Origin: an uncultured Eggerthellaceae bacterium
Lineage (GTDB): Bacteria > Actinomycetota > Coriobacteriia > Coriobacteriales > Eggerthellaceae
Reading direction: 5' to 3'
NCBI GenBank assembly: GCA_947650915.1
Contig: CANSWY010000015.1
Span: forward strand, 1 to 35,889
DNA: 35,889 nt
Made by a program: the position numbers and the translations under genes. A model generated the notes under the pieces. It was not told the DNA's origin. It ran no database searches and saw nothing but the letters and a program-made list of their open reading frames with translations. Shown piece after piece: positions 5,657 through 35,889 of this stretch. Within the stretch, counting starts at the first letter, position 1. Every line of letters starts with the position of its first letter.

Positions 5657-6864
5657 ATGCGCCAGCTGATCTTCCATAGCATCCGCATGAGGAAGGTGCA
5701 ATCCGCCTCCATCCTCGTCTCCATCGCGCTCTCTGCAGCGCTCTTTCTCGTCCTGGGTGGCATCTACAGAGGTGTCACCCAGGGCATCAGTTTGTCTGCG
5801 GAGCGCAACGGCGCGGATCTTCTGGTGGTGCCCGCCGATGCGCGTTCGTATCTTGATGAGGGAGAGCTGCTCTACACCGGCGTACCGGTGCCCATGTACA
5901 TGGACAAGGATGTCATGGACGCCATCCGTGGGCTTGAGGGGGTGGAGCGCGCAACAGCGCAGTTCTTCAGTCAGACGCTCAACGCCTCCTGTTGCTGGCC
6001 ACGGACGAGACGCGCTTGGTGGGCATCAATTTGGATGATGACTTCATCGTCTCCCCGCTCCTGCCGGATGGCTTCGGCGGCCAGCTGGCAGACGATGAGG
6101 TCATCGTGGGAAGCCAGGTGGACGGCATCGTTGACGGGGTGCTGCACATCTACGGAAAGCCCTACCGGGTGGCGGCCACCATGGCCGAGTCCGGGGGAGA
6201 TCTGGACCACTCCATCATCATGGACATGGACGTTGCGCGCCAGGTGTCCGCAGAGACGGACGGCTTCGACAGCACTTGGGAGAAGTATGGTGCGCCGGAA
6301 GGCCTCATCAGCGCCATCATGGTGGACGCCACGGATGATCCTGAGTCCTACGAGAAGCTCAAGATCAAGCTGAACCTGACGGATGGCGTGGCCTACGTGG
6401 AGAACGCGGAGACGGCGGAGCGCACGCAAGACCAGATGCGCTCCGTGTTCCTGCTCTTGGCGGGAGCAGCCGTCCTGATGTTGGCCGTCACCGTGCTGCA
6501 GCTCTTCGCGCGGTTCTATTCATGCGTGTGGGACCGCAAGAGCGAACTGGCGCTCTACCGCGCCATCGGTGCCAGCCAACGCGAGATCCGTGGCCTCATC
6601 GGCGGCGAAGTGGCGTTGCTGGCGGGCGGGGGCGTCATCGTGGGCATCGTGGTCGGCTTCATCCTTTACCGGGCGCTCTTGGGCGTGCTCGCCGATTCGT
6701 TGGCGTTCCCCTTCGTGTCCGTGGGCGCGGCGGGCATGACGCTCCTCATCGCAGGGATCATCGTGCTCATCGCCGTGCTCTCGTTTCTGTCCATCATCTG
6801 GCCGCTTCGGCAGGTGGGCCGTTTGGATCCCTCGCTTGCCATGCAACAGGGGGATATCGACTGA
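5657..6864 (+). pseudogene. FtsX/MacB-like ABC permease, frameshifted near 5995
   Basis: An FtsX-like permease whose reading frame is broken. From ATG 5657 the protein runs through a first membrane segment (about residues 18-38) and a periplasmic domain to TLNASCC. It then leaves frame and would end at 6373. The continuation LATDETRLVGINLDDD and the three C-terminal membrane segments are intact in another frame from about 5992 to 6864. Adding one base near 5995-5997 restores a protein of about 402 residues. Proteins of this kind work with LolD/FtsE-type ATPases in lipid or lipoprotein handling rather than import. The downstream ATPase overlaps its stop by one base (ATGA). The break could be a genuine mutation, a sequencing error or, less likely, recoding. 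Confidence 0.85.
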
Positions 6865-7502
6865 TGACCATGCTCGAAGTGAAGGGGCTGGGGAAGTCCT
6901 ACGGTGACCAAACCATACTGGAGGGCATCTCCTTCACGGTGAGATCCGGTGAATCGGTGGCGTTCGTGTCGCCCTCTGGTTCGGGCAAATCGACGCTGCT
7001 CTCCATGTTGGGGCTGCTGCTCTCTTCCACCACGGGCACCGTGGTGGTGGATGGCCAGGACACGGATGATCTGGATGACCAGCAGCTCTCGGCGCTTCGG
7101 CGCAACGTCTTCGGGTTCGTGTTCCAGCATACGCAGCTGGTGGGCAGCCTGCGCGCGGTGGAGAACGTGGAGGCGCCAGCGCTCTTCGCGAAGGATCTGC
7201 CGTTCAACGTGCGCGAGCGGGCAGAGGGGTTGCTCAGGAGCGTAGGGCTGGGGGAGCGGTTGGAGCATTATCCGTTCCAGCTCTCCATCGGGCAGAAGCG
7301 CCGCGTGGCCTTGGCCCGCGCCCTCATGATGGACCCGCCAGTCATCATCGCGGACGAGCCCACGAACGATCTGGATGCGAAAAGCGCCCAGAGCGTGGCG
7401 GATCAGCTGTTCGCGCGCGTGGAGGAGGGCGGCATCCTCTTGTTCGCCACTCATGACGCGAACCTGGCCACCCGCGCCACCCGCGTCATGCACCTGAAGT
7501 GA
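6864..7502 (+). CDS. LolD/FtsE-like ABC transporter ATP-binding protein
   Basis: A 212-residue ATPase of the MacB/LolD/FtsE group, partner of the preceding FtsX-like permease. Motifs: Walker A SPSGSGKST (36-44), Q-loop Gln88, signature LSIGQ (140-144), Walker B VIIADEP (160-166), and His197 in ATHD. The signature has Ile where the family consensus LSGGQ has Gly, while the Ser and the next Gly are kept. The first Walker A residue is Ser instead of Gly. ATG 6864 overlaps the permease stop (ATGA), with AGGGGG 11 bases upstream. Its own stop codon at 7500-7502 forms the first bases of an inverted repeat that brackets the transposase gene. Confidence 0.9.
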   Translation: MTMLEVKGLGKSYGDQTILEGISFTVRSGESVAFVSPSGSGKSTLLSMLGLLLSSTTGTVVVDGQDTDDLDDQQLSALRRNVFGFVFQHTQLVGSLRAVENVEAPALFAKDLPFNVRERAEGLLRSVGLGERLEHYPFQLSIGQKRRVALARALMMDPPVIIADEPTNDLDAKSAQSVADQLFARVEEGGILLFATHDANLATRATRVMHLK

Positions 7503-7525
7503 CGCAGGACGGGGATACTGTCACA
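7500..7525. repeat. Left inverted flanking repeat of the RAYT module (REP-like)
   Basis: This 26-bp segment matches the inverted segment at 8478-8503 at 23 of 26 positions. It contains GACGGGGATAC followed by GTCAC. In the other copy, GACGG and CCGTC can pair as a small hairpin. It begins exactly with the TGA stop codon of the upstream ATPase gene. Confidence 0.8.
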
Positions 7526-7537
7526 CGGGATCGAGGT

Positions 7538-8314
7538 TCATACGCTGATTCTCTGAATTATCCCGCGACCGATTCCCGTGAGGCGTTCGATCTGGCGCAC
7601 TGACATCCCGTATCTACGCAGCCGTTTGATCGCAGCGTTGCGTTCCTTCGACGGCAAGCTTGTTATCGTGTCAGCGAACGTGGCACCGAACTCGTCCTTC
7701 GCGAATCTGATGGCTTCGCTATCTGGGATGGCGCGCCGTTTGGGGATGACCGCTCCATCATCGATGGTCACCTCCATTTCCCATTCATCGTCAGGGGCGC
7801 ATGCGTGGAATTCGCTGATCTGCCCCGAGTCCCCAAGCAGGCCAAGGATGCGATCTGTCACACAAAGGATCGGTCCGTCGATATATTCCAGATAGCTGCT
7901 CCAAGGGTATTCATCGTATTTAGCTATGCCTGCGCGCGTGGGGTTCAGGTGGATATAGCGCGCGAGCTCTAGGAGATACGCGTCGCTCTCAACGGGAAAG
8001 CTGTGGAATCTGTCCTGGAAAACCGGCCCCACATGGCCATGATGGCCGTTGTAGTAGCGCCCGTAGGAGGTTCCGAGAGAGCGCATCATCTGCGTGAGGC
8101 TCGCCACATCGCCGCATTCGAGCAGCATATGGATGTGGTTGGGCATGAAGCACCATGCCAGAATGCGAACGCTGGCCTTATCTGCGTATTCCGAGATCTT
8201 GGCTAGAAAGAATCGATGGTCGTCATCATCTTCGAAGAGAATTCTGCGTCCTGCTCCCCGGCTGGTCACATGGTATATACCTGTGGACGATGCTCTGCGT
8301 GGTCCTCTTGTCAT
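7538..8314 (-). CDS. REP-associated tyrosine transposase (RAYT), Y1_Tnp/IS200-like
   Basis: A 258-residue single-domain HUH transposase. Seen features: N-terminal GIYHVTSRG, the metal-binding pair His60/His62 in MPNHIHMLLE, GPVFQDRFHS, the catalytic Tyr120 in YIHLNPTRAG, and a C-terminal helix-turn-helix (about 236-256, MSVRQIERLTGIG). This is the layout of RAYT proteins, domesticated relatives of IS200/IS605 transposases that cut REP hairpins in single-stranded DNA. ATG 8314 follows AGAGAGG; an in-frame start at 8401 would add 29 unlike residues. Base composition looks lower in GC than its neighbours. It lies between two convergent genes, framed by inverted repeats at 7500-7525 and 8478-8503, as known RAYT genes often are. 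Confidence 0.9.
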   Translation of the reverse strand: MTRGPRRASSTGIYHVTSRGAGRRILFEDDDDHRFFLAKISEYADKASVRILAWCFMPNHIHMLLECGDVASLTQMMRSLGTSYGRYYNGHHGHVGPVFQDRFHSFPVESDAYLLELARYIHLNPTRAGIAKYDEYPWSSYLEYIDGPILCVTDRILGLLGDSGQISEFHACAPDDEWEMEVTIDDGAVIPKRRAIPDSEAIRFAKDEFGATFADTITSLPSKERNAAIKRLRRYGMSVRQIERLTGIGRGIIQRISV

Positions 8315-8477
8315 GGCGCCTCTCTTTTGATTCGCGTGCTCCCAGTAGGTGAGGGCGAGCAGTATAGCGAACCGCCCTTCAGCGTTTTGGGATGCGATCA
8401 TCAGCGATCGGACCGATATTCATTTCGAGCCTTCATGAGCCTAACAAGTCAAAGGGCGCGTATCGCTTGTGTGGTGT

Positions 8478-8503
8478 GGTGACGGTATCCCCGTCCCGCG
8501 TCA
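8478..8503. repeat. Right inverted flanking repeat of the RAYT module (REP-like)
   Basis: The partner of 7500-7525 in inverted orientation (23 of 26 bases). It contains GACGGTATCCCCGTC, which pairs GACGG with CCGTC. It ends exactly on the stop codon (8501-8503) of the BioB-like gene reading in from the right. Confidence 0.8.
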
Positions 8504-9496
8504 CGCGAACATGGCTGACGGACCCTCCAGCACCTCCAGGCCGCATTCCTCCAACAGCTCCGCGCAGCGCGCCACCGTCCACCCGCGGTTGTCCTCGGTT
8601 TTGTCTTTGGTGTCCCGCGGGTTCGAACCCACCTCCGCCCACAGCAGGTTCGCGCCGTTGAAAGCGGCCAGCTGGTTGGGCTCATGGGTGCAATTGCCGG
8701 TCACGTTCGTGCCGGTGATGAGGGACACGGCTGCCACGATGGTGGCCATCCGCGCGTAGGCCACCGCGCCATGCACCGCCAATTCTGACGTGGGGATGGG
8801 GGTGCGGCGCATGGCGCCTGAGAATCGTGCGCCCATCTCGCGCGTCATGATGGTCTTTTCCACGATCTCTTCCAGGGAATGCTCCGGCCCCACCGGCTCC
8901 ACACAGGTGCCGATGAGCAAGCCGGCTTCTTGGGCTGCGTGGATGGTGTCCCAACGCTGCTGCACGGGCAGGCGCGTGAATTCGCCTTCTCCCAGGCGGA
9001 TGGCGTGGTAGATGCCGGTGAATCCGGCCTTCTTGAGCTCCACTGCATAGTCATGGTCGAAATCTCCCACGTTCGCGATCAGCGGGACCTTGCCGCCGAG
9101 GGCATCCGCGCAGGCGCGGCCATAGGCGAGGAATTGCTCCTGGTCGTAGCGTGCGGTGGCCATGAGGTAGACGGCGTTCGATCCGGCCTCCTCCAGCAAG
9201 CGCGCATAATCCACCACCGTTTCCAGCTCCTCTTCGGCCGGTTCGGTGAATACCTTGTTGCTGGCCGCGAACGAGCAGAACTTGCAATCCGCGGGGCAGA
9301 GCCCGGTGTTCAGCCCCACCTGTCCGTGGATCTCCGCCTTCGGCAGCAGCTCATCGCTGAAGCGGCGGCCTGCCAGGCGCACCGCGGCTGCCTCGTCGGA
9401 GAGATCGTCCCACTTGAGCAGCTCCACGCCTTCTTCGAGCGTGAGCATCCCGCCATCCAGCGCTTTGTTGATGATCTGAGAGACCGTGCGATCCAT
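8501..9496 (-). CDS. BioB-like radical SAM protein (paralogue 1)
   Basis: A 331-residue radical SAM enzyme related to biotin synthase and HydE. The SAM-cluster motif is CPADCKFC (Cys67, Cys71, Cys74). The barrel continues with NAVYLMATARYD, GIYHAIRLGEGEF, GTCVEPVGPEH and a C-terminal part with NCTHEPNQ and WAEVGSNPRD. Canonical biotin synthase carries further Cys residues for a [2Fe-2S] cluster. The positions I would align to Cys97 and Cys128 of E. coli BioB are not Cys here; only the one in GTCVEP looks equivalent to Cys188. So a standard biotin synthase is doubtful; a type using another auxiliary cluster, or a different product, is possible. GGGAGG precedes ATG 9496. It is divergent from paralogue 2. 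Confidence 0.85.
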   Translation of the reverse strand: MDRTVSQIINKALDGGMLTLEEGVELLKWDDLSDEAAAVRLAGRRFSDELLPKAEIHGQVGLNTGLCPADCKFCSFAASNKVFTEPAEEELETVVDYARLLEEAGSNAVYLMATARYDQEQFLAYGRACADALGGKVPLIANVGDFDHDYAVELKKAGFTGIYHAIRLGEGEFTRLPVQQRWDTIHAAQEAGLLIGTCVEPVGPEHSLEEIVEKTIMTREMGARFSGAMRRTPIPTSELAVHGAVAYARMATIVAAVSLITGTNVTGNCTHEPNQLAAFNGANLLWAEVGSNPRDTKDKTEDNRGWTVARCAELLEECGLEVLEGPSAMFA

Positions 9497-19900: not shown

Positions 19901-20002
19901 GAAGCCTCGGCAAAGCCAAGGCATGAATCCACTCAAGGGTGCGCAAACTCGTTTGCGCACCCAAAGGAAGCCTTGGCAAGATCGGCCAAGGCATGTGGCA
20001 TC
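19901..20002. repeat. Paired hairpins GCCTTGGC/GCCAAGGC
   Basis: Two related segments: 19901-19929 (GCCTCGGC-AAA-GCCAAGGC, one mismatch) and 19968-20002 (GCCTTGGC at 19970-19977 and GCCAAGGC at 19985-19992). Both begin GAAGCCT and continue GGCATG, so they form a diverged direct repeat of hairpins. They enclose the palindrome at 19937-19962. Confidence 0.65.
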
Positions 20003-20156
20003 CATAACGGGCTCACGCGCTCTGCGCGAACGCCCTAAAGCAGTGGAGCTCGCGCTCCACTGCTTTTCAGGTGCGCAAATGAGTTTGCGCACCCACGCAA
20101 GCCCCCGTCCTGCAACCAGCGGGTCTTCGTGGATGCGCAAACTCGTTTGCGCATCC
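19937..20156. repeat. Three copies of a GTGCGCAAAC palindrome
   Basis: Near-perfect palindromes built on GCGCAAAC-TC-GTTTGCGC lie at 19937-19962 (12-bp arms), 20070-20093 (loop TGAG) and 20131-20156 (GGAT...ATCC ends). A decayed fourth may follow near 20190. The flanking arm bases change together on both sides (GGGT/ACCC versus GGAT/ATCC), so pairing is conserved although the sequence varies. This is the sign of selection or of spread as a hairpin. They fill the gap between the convergent ilvC and ydcF genes and may act as bidirectional terminators. Confidence 0.8.
20037..20067. terminator. Strong hairpin with T-run after ilvC
   Basis: AAAGCAGTGGAGC (20037-20049) pairs perfectly with GCTCCACTGCTTT (20054-20066) around a 4-base loop. 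The A and T ends make it a two-way intrinsic terminator. It lies 140 bp after ilvC. Confidence 0.75.
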
Positions 20157-20253: not shown

Positions 20254-20347
20254 GGTGCAAAAGGGACGTCCCAAATCGCACATAGGAATGATGTCTCTTT
20301 GCAGATTTTCTTTTGCTATGTGCAATTTGGAACGTCCCTTTTGCACC
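20254..20347. repeat. Large palindromic element, copy E1
   Basis: A 94-bp inverted repeat with arms of about 32 bp (two mismatches) and a loop of about 28 bp. Each arm is itself a small hairpin: GTGCAA and TTGCAC (or CGCAC) frame the palindrome GGGACGTCCC. The outer ends are GGTGCAAAAG and CTTTTGCACC. Other copies are at 20883-20983, 26759-26850 and 35637 onward. The loop of E1 is clearly related to that of the copy at 26759 (both contain TCTTTGCAGATT). Confidence 0.9.
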
Positions 20348-20391: not shown

Positions 20392-20913
20392 TCAGCCATC
20401 CGTGACGTTACCGGAGCCGTCAAGGTTGATGGGTTCTCCGCCGAAAGTGGGTTCAGCTCCCAAGGCGACCATCAGCACATCCTTGGTGCGAGCGGGAGCC
20501 TCGCGCACATCCCAGATGATCTGCTGCTGGTAGGCGTGCAGGTCGGAAGGCACGCCGACGGCATCCATCCCCATGCCCAGCGCATCGTAGAGCGCGCGGG
20601 AAAGGTGGTAGCTTTGCGTGGAGACGATGATCTTCTCAGCGCCGAAGACGTGCTTCGCGCGGTGCATGGTCTCATAGGTGGAGAAGCCCGCATGGTCGCA
20701 GAAGACGTCCTCAGCTGGAACGCCCTGGCTGACGGCGTAGTCCTTCATGCCCTTCACTTCGTCGTAGGCGACGGTGCCATGGTCGCCGCTCATGATGATC
20801 TTGGGAGCCGCGCCCGCTTCGTAGAGCGCCACTGCATTGTCCAACCGGTCCTTCAGGATGTCCGAGGGCGTGCCGTCCGGGCGGATGTGCAAAAGGGACG
20901 TCCCAAATCGCAC
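20392..20913 (-). pseudogene. YdcF/SanA-like (DUF218) gene, 5'-truncated at a palindromic element
   Basis: A 173-residue frame whose body matches the YdcF/SanA-like DUF218 domain: RPDGTPSDILKDRLDNAVAL, IIMSGDH, STYETMHRAKHVFG, IIVSTQSYHLSRAL and a C-terminal GAEPTFGGEPI. Family members begin with a membrane anchor and a strand such as DxIIVLGAG directly before RPDGTPS. Here that part is missing. The first ten codons (GTG 20913 onward, MRFGTSLLHI) are encoded by an arm of the palindromic element at 20883-20983. Only 30 bases then separate the element from the upstream gene, so the 5' end is lost, not displaced. Intact relatives are thought to act in envelope or vancomycin-related functions; this copy is probably inactive. 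Confidence 0.8.
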
Positions 20914-20983
20914 ATAGGAATGAGCATTGCGTGCTGGGAGACTTCTCCTATGTGCAATTTGGAACGTCCCTTTTGCACATCCG
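20883..20983. repeat. Large palindromic element, copy E2, at the truncated ydcF end
   Basis: A 101-bp inverted repeat with 38-bp arms (two mismatches), from CGGATGTGCAAAAG to CTTTTGCACATCCG, and a 25-bp loop unlike those of E1 and E3. It lies at the broken 5' end of the ydcF-like gene and provides that gene's apparent start codon. Confidence 0.9.
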
Positions 20984-26721: not shown

Positions 26722-26758
26722 GTGCGAAAAGCCTCCCGTGTGCGAAAGGGCTCCCCGT
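26722..26758. repeat. Inverted-orientation tandem units left of element E3
   Basis: Two units reading GTGCGAAAAGCCTCCC and then GTGTGCGAAAGGGCTCCCC lead directly into the palindrome. They are the reverse complement of the 19-bp units on its right side, so the whole structure is mirrored. Confidence 0.75.
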
Positions 26759-26850
26759 GTGCGAAAGGGACGTTCCAAATTGCACATAGGAATGACGTTT
26801 CTTTGCAGATTCTCTGCTTCTATGTGCAATTTGGGACGTCCCTTTCGCAC
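26759..26850. repeat. Large palindromic element, copy E3
   Basis: A 92-bp inverted repeat with 31-bp arms (one mismatch) between the convergent leuA and gtrA genes. The outer ends here read GTGCGAAAGGG and CCCTTTCGCAC, with CG where E1, E2 and E4 have CA. The change occurs in both arms, so pairing is kept. The loop resembles that of E1. Confidence 0.9.
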
Positions 26851-26953
26851 CTGGGGAGCCCTTTCGCACCTGGGGAGCCCTTTCGCACCTGGGGAGCCCT
26901 TTCGCACCTGGGGAGCCCTTTCGCACACGGGGAGCCCTTTCGCTGGGATGCGT
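26841..26953. repeat. 19-bp tandem repeat extending from E3
   Basis: Five units of CCTTTCGCACCTGGGGAGC start at 26841, 26860, 26879, 26898 and 26917; the fifth has ACACGGGG. A partial sixth follows. The first unit overlaps the right tip of the palindrome, so the array has grown from the element's end. There are no unique spacers, so it is not a CRISPR array. Confidence 0.9.
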
Positions 26954-34733: not shown

Positions 34734-35637
34734 GGTGCTGCCAGCGAAAGACGTTCCATTCTCAGGCGCCTCCTGTGCCTTCGGCGTGTTCGACGGCGTG
34801 CATGAGGGACATCGCTTCATCATCGAGCGCGCCCAGGAGGACGCGCGCGCTCGTGGCAGGAGGGCCGTCATCATCACGTTCAGCCAGGACCCCTCAGAGC
34901 TCTTCTGTCCGGAGGCCCGGGACAAGCTCATGGGCAACGATGAGCGGCTGCGCGCCCTGGCGGCCACGGGGGCGGATGCGGTGGCGGTCGTGCCTTTCAA
35001 CGGGGAGGTGGCGGCAGAGGGCCCTGATGCGTTCTTGGATGGCCTGTTCGCCCAAGGCGCGCCCGCGACGCTCTTCGTGGGCGAAGATGTGCATTTCGGA
35101 CGTGGCGCTCAAGGCGCGCTGGCGGACCTCCAGACATGGGGGAGCGCGCATGGGATGGAAGTGCGGGGGGTGCCGCTCCTTGAACGGGATGGCGCGCCGG
35201 TCACGTCCACGCGCATCCGCAAGCGCCTGGCCGCTGGCGATGTGGAAGAGGCGGCGGATCTTCTGGGGCGTCCCTATGCCCTGGAGGGCCGCGTGGTCTC
35301 TGGCAGACAGGCTGGGCGGGAAATGGGCATCTGCACGGCGAACCTGAGCGTGGCGGCCGACCGGCTGGTGCCCGCAGACGGCGTGTACGCGGCCTATGCG
35401 GACGTCCAGGGCGCGCGCTGCAAGGCGGCCGTTTCCGTGGGGGTGCCCGTCACCTTCGAAGGCGTCACGGAATCCACCATCGAAGCGCACCTGCTTGATT
35501 TCGACCAGGACATCTACGGGGATGCGCTCACGCTCTCGTTCGTGCGCCGCCTGCGCCCCATGGTCAAGTTCGCGAGCACGGACGAGCTGGTGGCTCAGAT
35601 CCAACAGGACATCGCCCGCACCCGCCAGCTTCCCTGA
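34723..35637 (+). CDS. ribF: Bifunctional riboflavin kinase / FAD synthetase
   Basis: A 304-residue protein making FMN and FAD from riboflavin. The N-terminal nucleotidyltransferase half has FDGVHEGH (23-30) and STRIRKRLAAGD. The C-terminal kinase half begins at about 185 (GRPYALEGRVVSG). In it the usual G-(F/Y)-P-T-A-N motif reads GICTAN: Thr and Asn are kept but Pro is Cys. The start is GTG 34723, inside the end of truB, so translational coupling is likely. It is the last gene of the operon, followed directly by palindromic repeats. Minor sequence deviations do not argue against function. Confidence 0.93.
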   Translation: MSCEVLPAKDVPFSGASCAFGVFDGVHEGHRFIIERAQEDARARGRRAVIITFSQDPSELFCPEARDKLMGNDERLRALAATGADAVAVVPFNGEVAAEGPDAFLDGLFAQGAPATLFVGEDVHFGRGAQGALADLQTWGSAHGMEVRGVPLLERDGAPVTSTRIRKRLAAGDVEEAADLLGRPYALEGRVVSGRQAGREMGICTANLSVAADRLVPADGVYAAYADVQGARCKAAVSVGVPVTFEGVTESTIEAHLLDFDQDIYGDALTLSFVRRLRPMVKFASTDELVAQIQQDIARTRQLP

Positions 35638-35668
35638 TGTGCAAAAGGGACGTCCCAAATTGCACCTG
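35637..35668. repeat. Solo half of the palindromic element
   Basis: A single arm, GATGTGCAAAAGGG through AAATTGCACC, begins at the last base of ribF. Unlike the full elements it has no inverted partner before the next copy. It shows that the 27-bp hairpin arm (GTGCAA...TTGCAC around GGGACGTCCC) can exist alone. Confidence 0.85.
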
Positions 35669-35679
35669 CGGGATCACTT

Positions 35680-35889
35680 GATGTGCAAAAGGGACGTTCC
35701 AAATTGCACATAGGAAGAATCTTTCCGTACGCATCGCCCTTTTCCTATGTGCAATTTGGGACGTCCCTTTTGCACATCCCCACATAGGAAGAATCTTTCC
35801 GTACGCATCGCCCTTTTTCTATGTGCAGTTTGGAACGTCCCTTTTGCACATCCCCACATAGGAAGAATCTTTCCGTACGCATCGCCCTT
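35680..35889. repeat. Palindromic element E4 amplified as a 74-bp tandem array
   Basis: A complete palindrome (about 35680-35779) is followed by repeats of its loop plus right arm. The segment starting CACATAGGAAGAATC occurs at 35707, 35781 and 35855, exactly 74 bp apart, and runs out of the window. The loop (AATCTTTCCGTACGCATCG) is shared by the three units and differs from those of E1, E2 and E3. The second unit has small changes (a C-to-T in the loop end, AGTTTGG for AATTTGG), so the copies are slightly diverged. Confidence 0.92.

Follow-up and report, generated by a model that had tools for sequence, protein, structure and literature searches.

A replication-polar population of REPIN-like palindromes in an Eggerthellaceae genome, probably derived from the terminal hairpins of a Y1 transposase

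Introduction

Single-stranded transposition is the presumed mode of movement of REP and REPIN repeats, although the evidence for it is mostly biochemical or comes from a few excision reads. The REPINs of Pseudomonas (PMC3116915) resemble the palindromes reported here in consisting of two inverted conserved REPs around a less conserved spacer of set length, in showing compensatory changes and better conservation of doublets than of singlets, and in being extragenic and present in hundreds of copies. Unlike them, the present family has no GTAG tag and no repeat-flanked transposase found in the genome, and its two arm types stand in an order that follows the direction of replication. The BIMEs of E. 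coli (Y and Z REPs, GTAG-3 heterodimers) likewise contain heterodimers of two REP types and form mosaic tandem clusters with distinct linkers (PMC3733652, PMC8266576), but the arms here lack the GTAG tag, are about 29-34 bp long and have a GGGAC core. Heterodimers are common among REP families, and no obvious explanation was given for this (PMC3733652). Dimers, frequently heterodimers, are also formed by CGTC-tagged REPs, for which the genome yielded no dedicated transposase (PMC3733652); in our family, however, CGTC lies mid-arm, in the core, and not at an unpaired end, and sequence and stem length differ.

TIR repeats with their TIRYT transposases (PMC3733652), probably subclass 2.1 (PMC6006769), share with the present system a Y1 protein of ~260-290 aa bounded by inverted repeats, which here are GGGAC-core hairpins and not GTAG REPs. 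TIR families were called moderately abundant (PMC3733652), and subclass 2.1, with which TIRYT was provisionally equated, was reported without REP-like sequences nearby (PMC6006769). In contrast, one terminal hairpin is present here at ~1,100 copies, mostly as dimers. IS200/IS605 elements such as IS608 have a Y1 HUH enzyme and hairpin ends, and their transposed single strand inserts into the lagging-strand template (PMC6006769), so that insertion of this type at forks predicts an orientation bias as seen here; the elements described below differ in encoding nothing, and their movement is predicted. The phylum Actinomycetota is not mentioned in the REP classification paper (PMC3733652), and a literature search for Eggerthellaceae palindromic repeats found none.

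The first-pass annotation of this locus did not recognise the family. That verdict can be replaced: the family behaves as a REPIN/BIME population of TIR-type Y1 transposases and, judged by most of its features, is one. As a REPIN-like population of the TIR/TIRYT branch it is of a known kind, while this branch and its polarity are apparently new. We consider it probable that the palindromes are non-autonomous mobile elements that arose from Y1/HUH terminal hairpins, spread as single strands and inserted in a fork-directed manner.

Results

Four palindromes in the window

The window, by which we mean the whole 35,889-nucleotide stretch that was analysed, is contig C15 of an Eggerthellaceae MAG (1.98 Mb, 61% GC). 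The arm coordinates confirm the four full copies of the first-pass annotation, and further arms lie next to the last of them:

20254..20347, + strand: E1, full palindrome; C-type arm 20254-20287, 26-nt loop 20288-20313, T-type arm 20314-20347
20884..20981, + strand: E2, full palindrome; C-type arm 20886-20919, loop 20920-20945, T-type arm 20946-20979
26758..26851, - strand: E3, full palindrome; T-type arm 26758-26791, loop 26792-26817, C-type arm 26818-26851
35680..35778, - strand: E4, full palindrome; T-type arm 35682-35715, 27-nt loop, C-type arm 35743-35776
35636..35665, + strand: satellite C-type arm, a direct repeat just upstream of E4, linker TGCGGGATCACTT
35781..35889, + strand: tandem repeats of loop plus right arm, 74-bp unit, extending off the contig end

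Each of the four pairs one GACGTCCC arm with one GACGTTCC arm. The earlier statement that every full copy is C/T-asymmetric thus holds in the window, but genome-wide it applies to 329 of 345 dimers and is not universal. The CA-to-CG change noted in both arms of E3 is real and compensatory. The loops of E1, E3 and E4 match the loop consensus in one orientation (15-17 of 26 positions), and that of E2 is too diverged for orienting (12 versus 13 of 26 matches). E1 is intergenic and E2 touches the 5' end of a SanA-like ORF (20392-20913). This ORF starts within E2, matches its profile from position 65 onwards only, and was possibly truncated or re-started through the E2 insertion.

Other repeats accompany these copies. 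Loop-plus-arm tandem repeats of 74 bp span 35707-35889, into the contig end, and a 19-bp tandem array (CCCTTTCGCACCTGGGGAG) grows from the outer arm of E3 at 26840-26943, with inverted units beyond. Three copies of another 26-bp palindrome (GGGTGCGCAAACTCGTTTGCGCACCC type) lie within 220 bp at 19937-20156. True GTAG-type REPs (CGTAGCGCAGGCTTCAGCCTGCGAC) stand at 1211-1243 and 1320-1352. A search of the window against Rfam gave no match.

The palindromes belong to one very large genomic family

The family was catalogued in nearly the whole genome, leaving out one 40-kb stretch and three tiny contigs. A 25-base arm pattern gave 869 genome matches with up to 3 mismatches versus 0 for the reversed control, which excludes chance and establishes the further copies whose absence would have spoken against a family. 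A looser scan yielded 1,113 arms, 704 of which form 352 inverted pairs; the dimer analyses rest on the 345 pairs with complete flanks. Arms and loops together make up ~2.7% of the genome.

The family unit of ~98 bp consists of a GATGTGCAAAAGGGACGTYCCAAATYGCACATAGGA arm, a 26-nt loop and the inverted arm. Each arm is a hairpin in itself and nearly invariant save at positions 5, 6, 16, 23, 32, 33 and their mirrors. The spacer is 26 nt long in 309 of 347 dimers (~90%). The loops had been taken for at least three unrelated types; this was rejected, since genome-wide they form one alignable, diverged family (consensus ACAGTCTTTCAGTGCTCATTCTCTTT) with a mean pairwise difference of 37%, versus 72% for random sequences of the same composition, in either orientation.

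Satellite arms stand as direct repeats on either flank of the dimers, with side-specific linkers (CGYGAGGTTGCCT on one side, ATAGGGTCAACGTTCCGG on the other), and this layout of arms and linkers is a BIME-like mosaic. The repeats also break the assembly, as an arm is found less than 150 bp away from 55 of the 92 contig ends. On contig C8, two satellite arms (about 6691-6719 and 8477-8505) carry the core CCCCGCCCC in place of GGGACGTCCC, perhaps through core conversion.

The two arms covary and are conserved as a unit

The outer stem covaries between arms, at position pairs 6/87 (MI 0.43), -2/95 (MI 0.31) and 5/88 (MI 0.22) and also at 0/93 and -1/94; pair 6/87 is A-T in 226 copies and G-C in 44, with few other states. 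Within an arm, pairs 5/23 and 6/22 show no covariation (MI 0.001). Because the covariation runs between the arms, we rejected the notion of independent hairpins without long pairing. The relation of arm changes to pairing extends over many copies beyond E3. Since satellite arms at one locus often share the same variant, local copying between arms, and not selection, may explain part of it. Pair 23/70 varies independently, without covariation, and pair 16/77 is nearly always mismatched, as C-A or T-G; only 16 of 345 copies are perfectly paired there.

Mismatches at conserved positions number 0.18 in doublets, 1.31 in clustered singlets and 1.0 in isolated singlets (p = 5e-55). Between nearest loop relatives, the loops differ at 8.7% of sites and the constrained arm positions at 0.9%. 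This better conservation of doublets than of single arms is the REPIN/BIME signature. The other hallmarks of REPINs are present as well, namely over-represented inverted doublets with a fixed-length spacer (~345 doublets), compensatory changes and an extragenic location. A GTAG-type unpaired end tag is absent: the arm ends read GATG and CATAGGA, and true GTAG REPs exist separately in this genome. Having neither GTAG nor CGTC end tags, the arms are not members of those superfamilies.

The insertions are missing from a congener

The first-pass annotation described the elements as seemingly mobile or selected as structures; the covarying outer stem agrees with this, and so does comparison with relatives. 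A congener (G001), whose DNA is 84% identical over the window region, has 0 copies. At the E3 site, a gap of 309 bp here corresponds to 19 bp in the congener with the flanks aligned, and further compact gaps with aligned flanks (771 versus 30, 382 versus 31, 330 versus 33 and 230 versus 32 bp) provide empty sites. Of 397 genomes of the order, nearly all lack the family. Eggerthellaceae MAGs are among the relatives in which related arms occur, and a search of viral contigs for the arms gave no match. With genes predicted by a home-made gene finder, 7 of 345 copies fall within genes, and elements are present in 53% of convergent gene pairs, in 20% of divergent ones and in 13% of those with the same direction.

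Terminal inverted repeats, a size of ~100 bp and the high copy number would also suit a MITE of a classical DDE insertion sequence. We regard this as highly improbable: there is no target duplication in the 112 copies without neighbouring arms, every arm is itself a hairpin, the spacer length is fixed, the tandem layout is BIME-like, and a relative has a Y1 gene enclosed by similar arms (see below). The intergenic location with enrichment between convergent genes, the near-invariant arms next to drifting loops and the strong replication polarity (next section) could instead point to resident replication-polar chromosome signals, similar to KOPS and selected in place, with protein-binding arms and a loop serving as neutral filler. 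Such signals are quite unlikely, however, given the absence from the congener and from nearly all genomes of the order; the empty sites, the tandem satellites, the decay of singlets and the relative's arm-bordered transposase fit mobility better. Elements that first spread as mobile DNA may also have been co-opted later as chromosome signals.

The order of the arms follows replication

The constant asymmetry had been read as implying strand polarity, and in this one MAG it proves to be a genome-wide polarity relative to replication. Heterodimers were scored for having the C arm on the left with respect to the local leading strand, which was inferred on the MAG contigs from the sign of the GC skew within 40 kb on each side. 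The C/T polarity agrees with the leading strand so inferred in 249 of 285 heterodimers (87%, p = 2e-40) and in 27 of 29 contigs, the two exceptions having weak skew. Only two of the four window copies have the majority polarity. The bias holds between convergent genes (70 with versus 13 against the leading strand) and between divergent genes (26 versus 2), which means that gene direction does not explain it. Transcription is disfavoured as the driver: direct conflicts between the two are too few to decide (10 versus 5), but the convergent and divergent contexts favour replication. A plain strand mutation bias was rejected, since leading-strand C to T change would yield the opposite polarity.

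Clustered satellites obey the same rule: 156 C arms run along the leading strand and 22 do not, while 83 T arms run against it and 13 do not. Loop orientation tracks replication less well, and where arms and loop disagree, the arms follow it by 27 to 7. Other REP families of this genome show no orientation bias, though their copies are few. A remark on SBW25 states that tandem arrays on opposite sides of the genome have opposite orientation (PMC3116915); apart from it, our literature search found no description of replication polarity of REP dimers. Both the C/T asymmetry that follows replication direction and this branch of the family look new.

The main rival to directed insertion is selective loss. 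Perfect long palindromes on the lagging template would be deleted or cleaved by an SbcCD-like activity, and mainly copies with a C-A mismatch in the lagging-template hairpin would persist, giving polarity without any insertion preference. The rarity of copies perfectly paired at 16/77 agrees with this, as does the common polarity, in which the lagging template bears C-A while the more stable G-T falls to the opposite strand; at a second variable pair there is a weak tendency in this direction (CA 50, TG 33, p = 0.08). But only one position behaves so: pair 23/70 is fully paired in 177 of 260 copies and the outer stem stays paired. The direct-repeat satellite arms, which lie outside the main dimer, also follow the C/T rule. 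With pair 23/70 and the satellite arms speaking against it, such a filter is an unlikely source of the polarity.

Mobility of the IS200/IS605 type, with strand-specific excision and insertion of a single strand, is predicted on the indirect evidence of the replication polarity and the missing target duplication. The ~345 elements carry their own mark of polarity and, with 87% of them oriented with replication, constitute a genome-scale record that is consistent with single-strand insertion at the fork.

Terminal hairpins of Y1 transposases as a probable origin

A search for Y1 transposases gave seven matches in this genome, of which one lies in the window:

7538..8401, - strand: transposase gene, Y1 (HUH), REP-type, TIR branch; direct reading shows the HUH motif as NHIH and the Tyr motif as RYIHLNP
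8479..8504, - strand: its upstream terminal hairpin, stem GTGACG, core CGGGACGGGGATAC, read from sequence
7499..7524, + strand: its downstream terminal hairpin, GTGAC-GCAGGACGGGGATACT-GTCAC, read from sequence

We treat this predicted transposase as a relative and assign it no role as mobiliser of the arms. The Y1 gene at C1:138 kb is flanked by true GTAG REPs of the CGTAGCGCAGGCTTCAGCCTGCGAC family, and other Y1 genes have hairpin ends such as GTGACG-CGGGACGGGGATAC-CGTCAC. None of the seven genes is bordered by the arms (borders were inspected for seven and neighbouring arms checked for six), which suggests that the mobiliser was lost, is unassembled, lies in the left-out 40 kb or acts in trans. 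A search of this genome for a long transposon ended by the arms showed that inward-facing unpaired arms are nearly all satellites ~100-190 bp apart; one such pair is 4.1 kb apart.

A REPtron, with a cognate RAYT bounded by repeats in the same genome, was thus not found here but is present in a relative, G295. On its contig CANOCK010000037, TGTGCAATT-GGGACGTTCCA-AATTGCACA and an inverted copy directly enclose a 263-aa Y1 gene; these two arms closely resemble those of the genome studied here and are both T-type. G295 also has one complete family element, whose T/T arms have exactly the core TGCAAAAGGGACGTTCCAAATTGCACATAG of our arms and whose loop is similar. This arm similarity and the shared whole element tie the arms of our genome to the TIR/TIRYT branch.

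Relatives of the G295 Y1 protein occur in 56 of 138 Eggerthellaceae genomes searched. At many of 30 such loci the gene is flanked, on one side or on both, by hairpins that share a GGGAC core but not their stems (for example AAGGGACACCCCTAA, AAGGGACGGGGTCAA and GGGACGGTCCTT); a simple search found no terminal hairpin at about ten. Inverted terminal hairpins with a G-rich core around a Y1 gene, as in TIR/TIRYT, are therefore seen in G295 and in many relatives. When a C-terminal helix-turn-helix was looked for, Pfam reported only Y1_Tnp at E < 0.05; a long C-terminal part is present. In the congener G001, a separate dimer family, GGGGACGGAGGAGTGA, forms inverted pairs whose offset is constant at 33 bp (L232-L251). 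With differing stems around a GGGAC core and separate dimers in the congener, the arms seem to be part of a set of terminal hairpins whose stems are interchangeable and which related Y1 enzymes would read.

The typical element is a heterodimer of two REP-like hairpins, one C-type and one T-type, around a spacer of fixed length. Its proposed source is the terminal hairpins of a TIR-associated Y1/HUH transposase (TIRYT), an enzyme that is probably of TnpA-REP subclass 2.1. Transposition would use the leading-strand sequence, on which the C-type arm is the 5' one; left and right ends would be told apart by the C/T difference, most elements would then keep one direction relative to the fork, and repeated use of the same ends could generate tandem satellites with side-specific linkers. 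More tentatively, and with less than even confidence, the C/T core base may itself tell the transposase left end from right, leading to one-way insertion of the population and a chromosome-wide replication-polar pattern. Both transposon ends of G295 are T-type, so such marking cannot be needed in general.

One TIR-type terminal hairpin thus appears, from sequence comparison, to have become a very large REPIN-like population. This suggests that TIRYT/subclass 2.1 enzymes, although reported without REPs, can seed very large REP-like populations, and it makes the preference of REP dimers for two different arms, left unexplained in PMC3733652, testable. In some relatives (L158:1380-1450, L157 and L159-L160), tandem GTGCAATTG units precede an arm, as if the outer stem had been multiplied.
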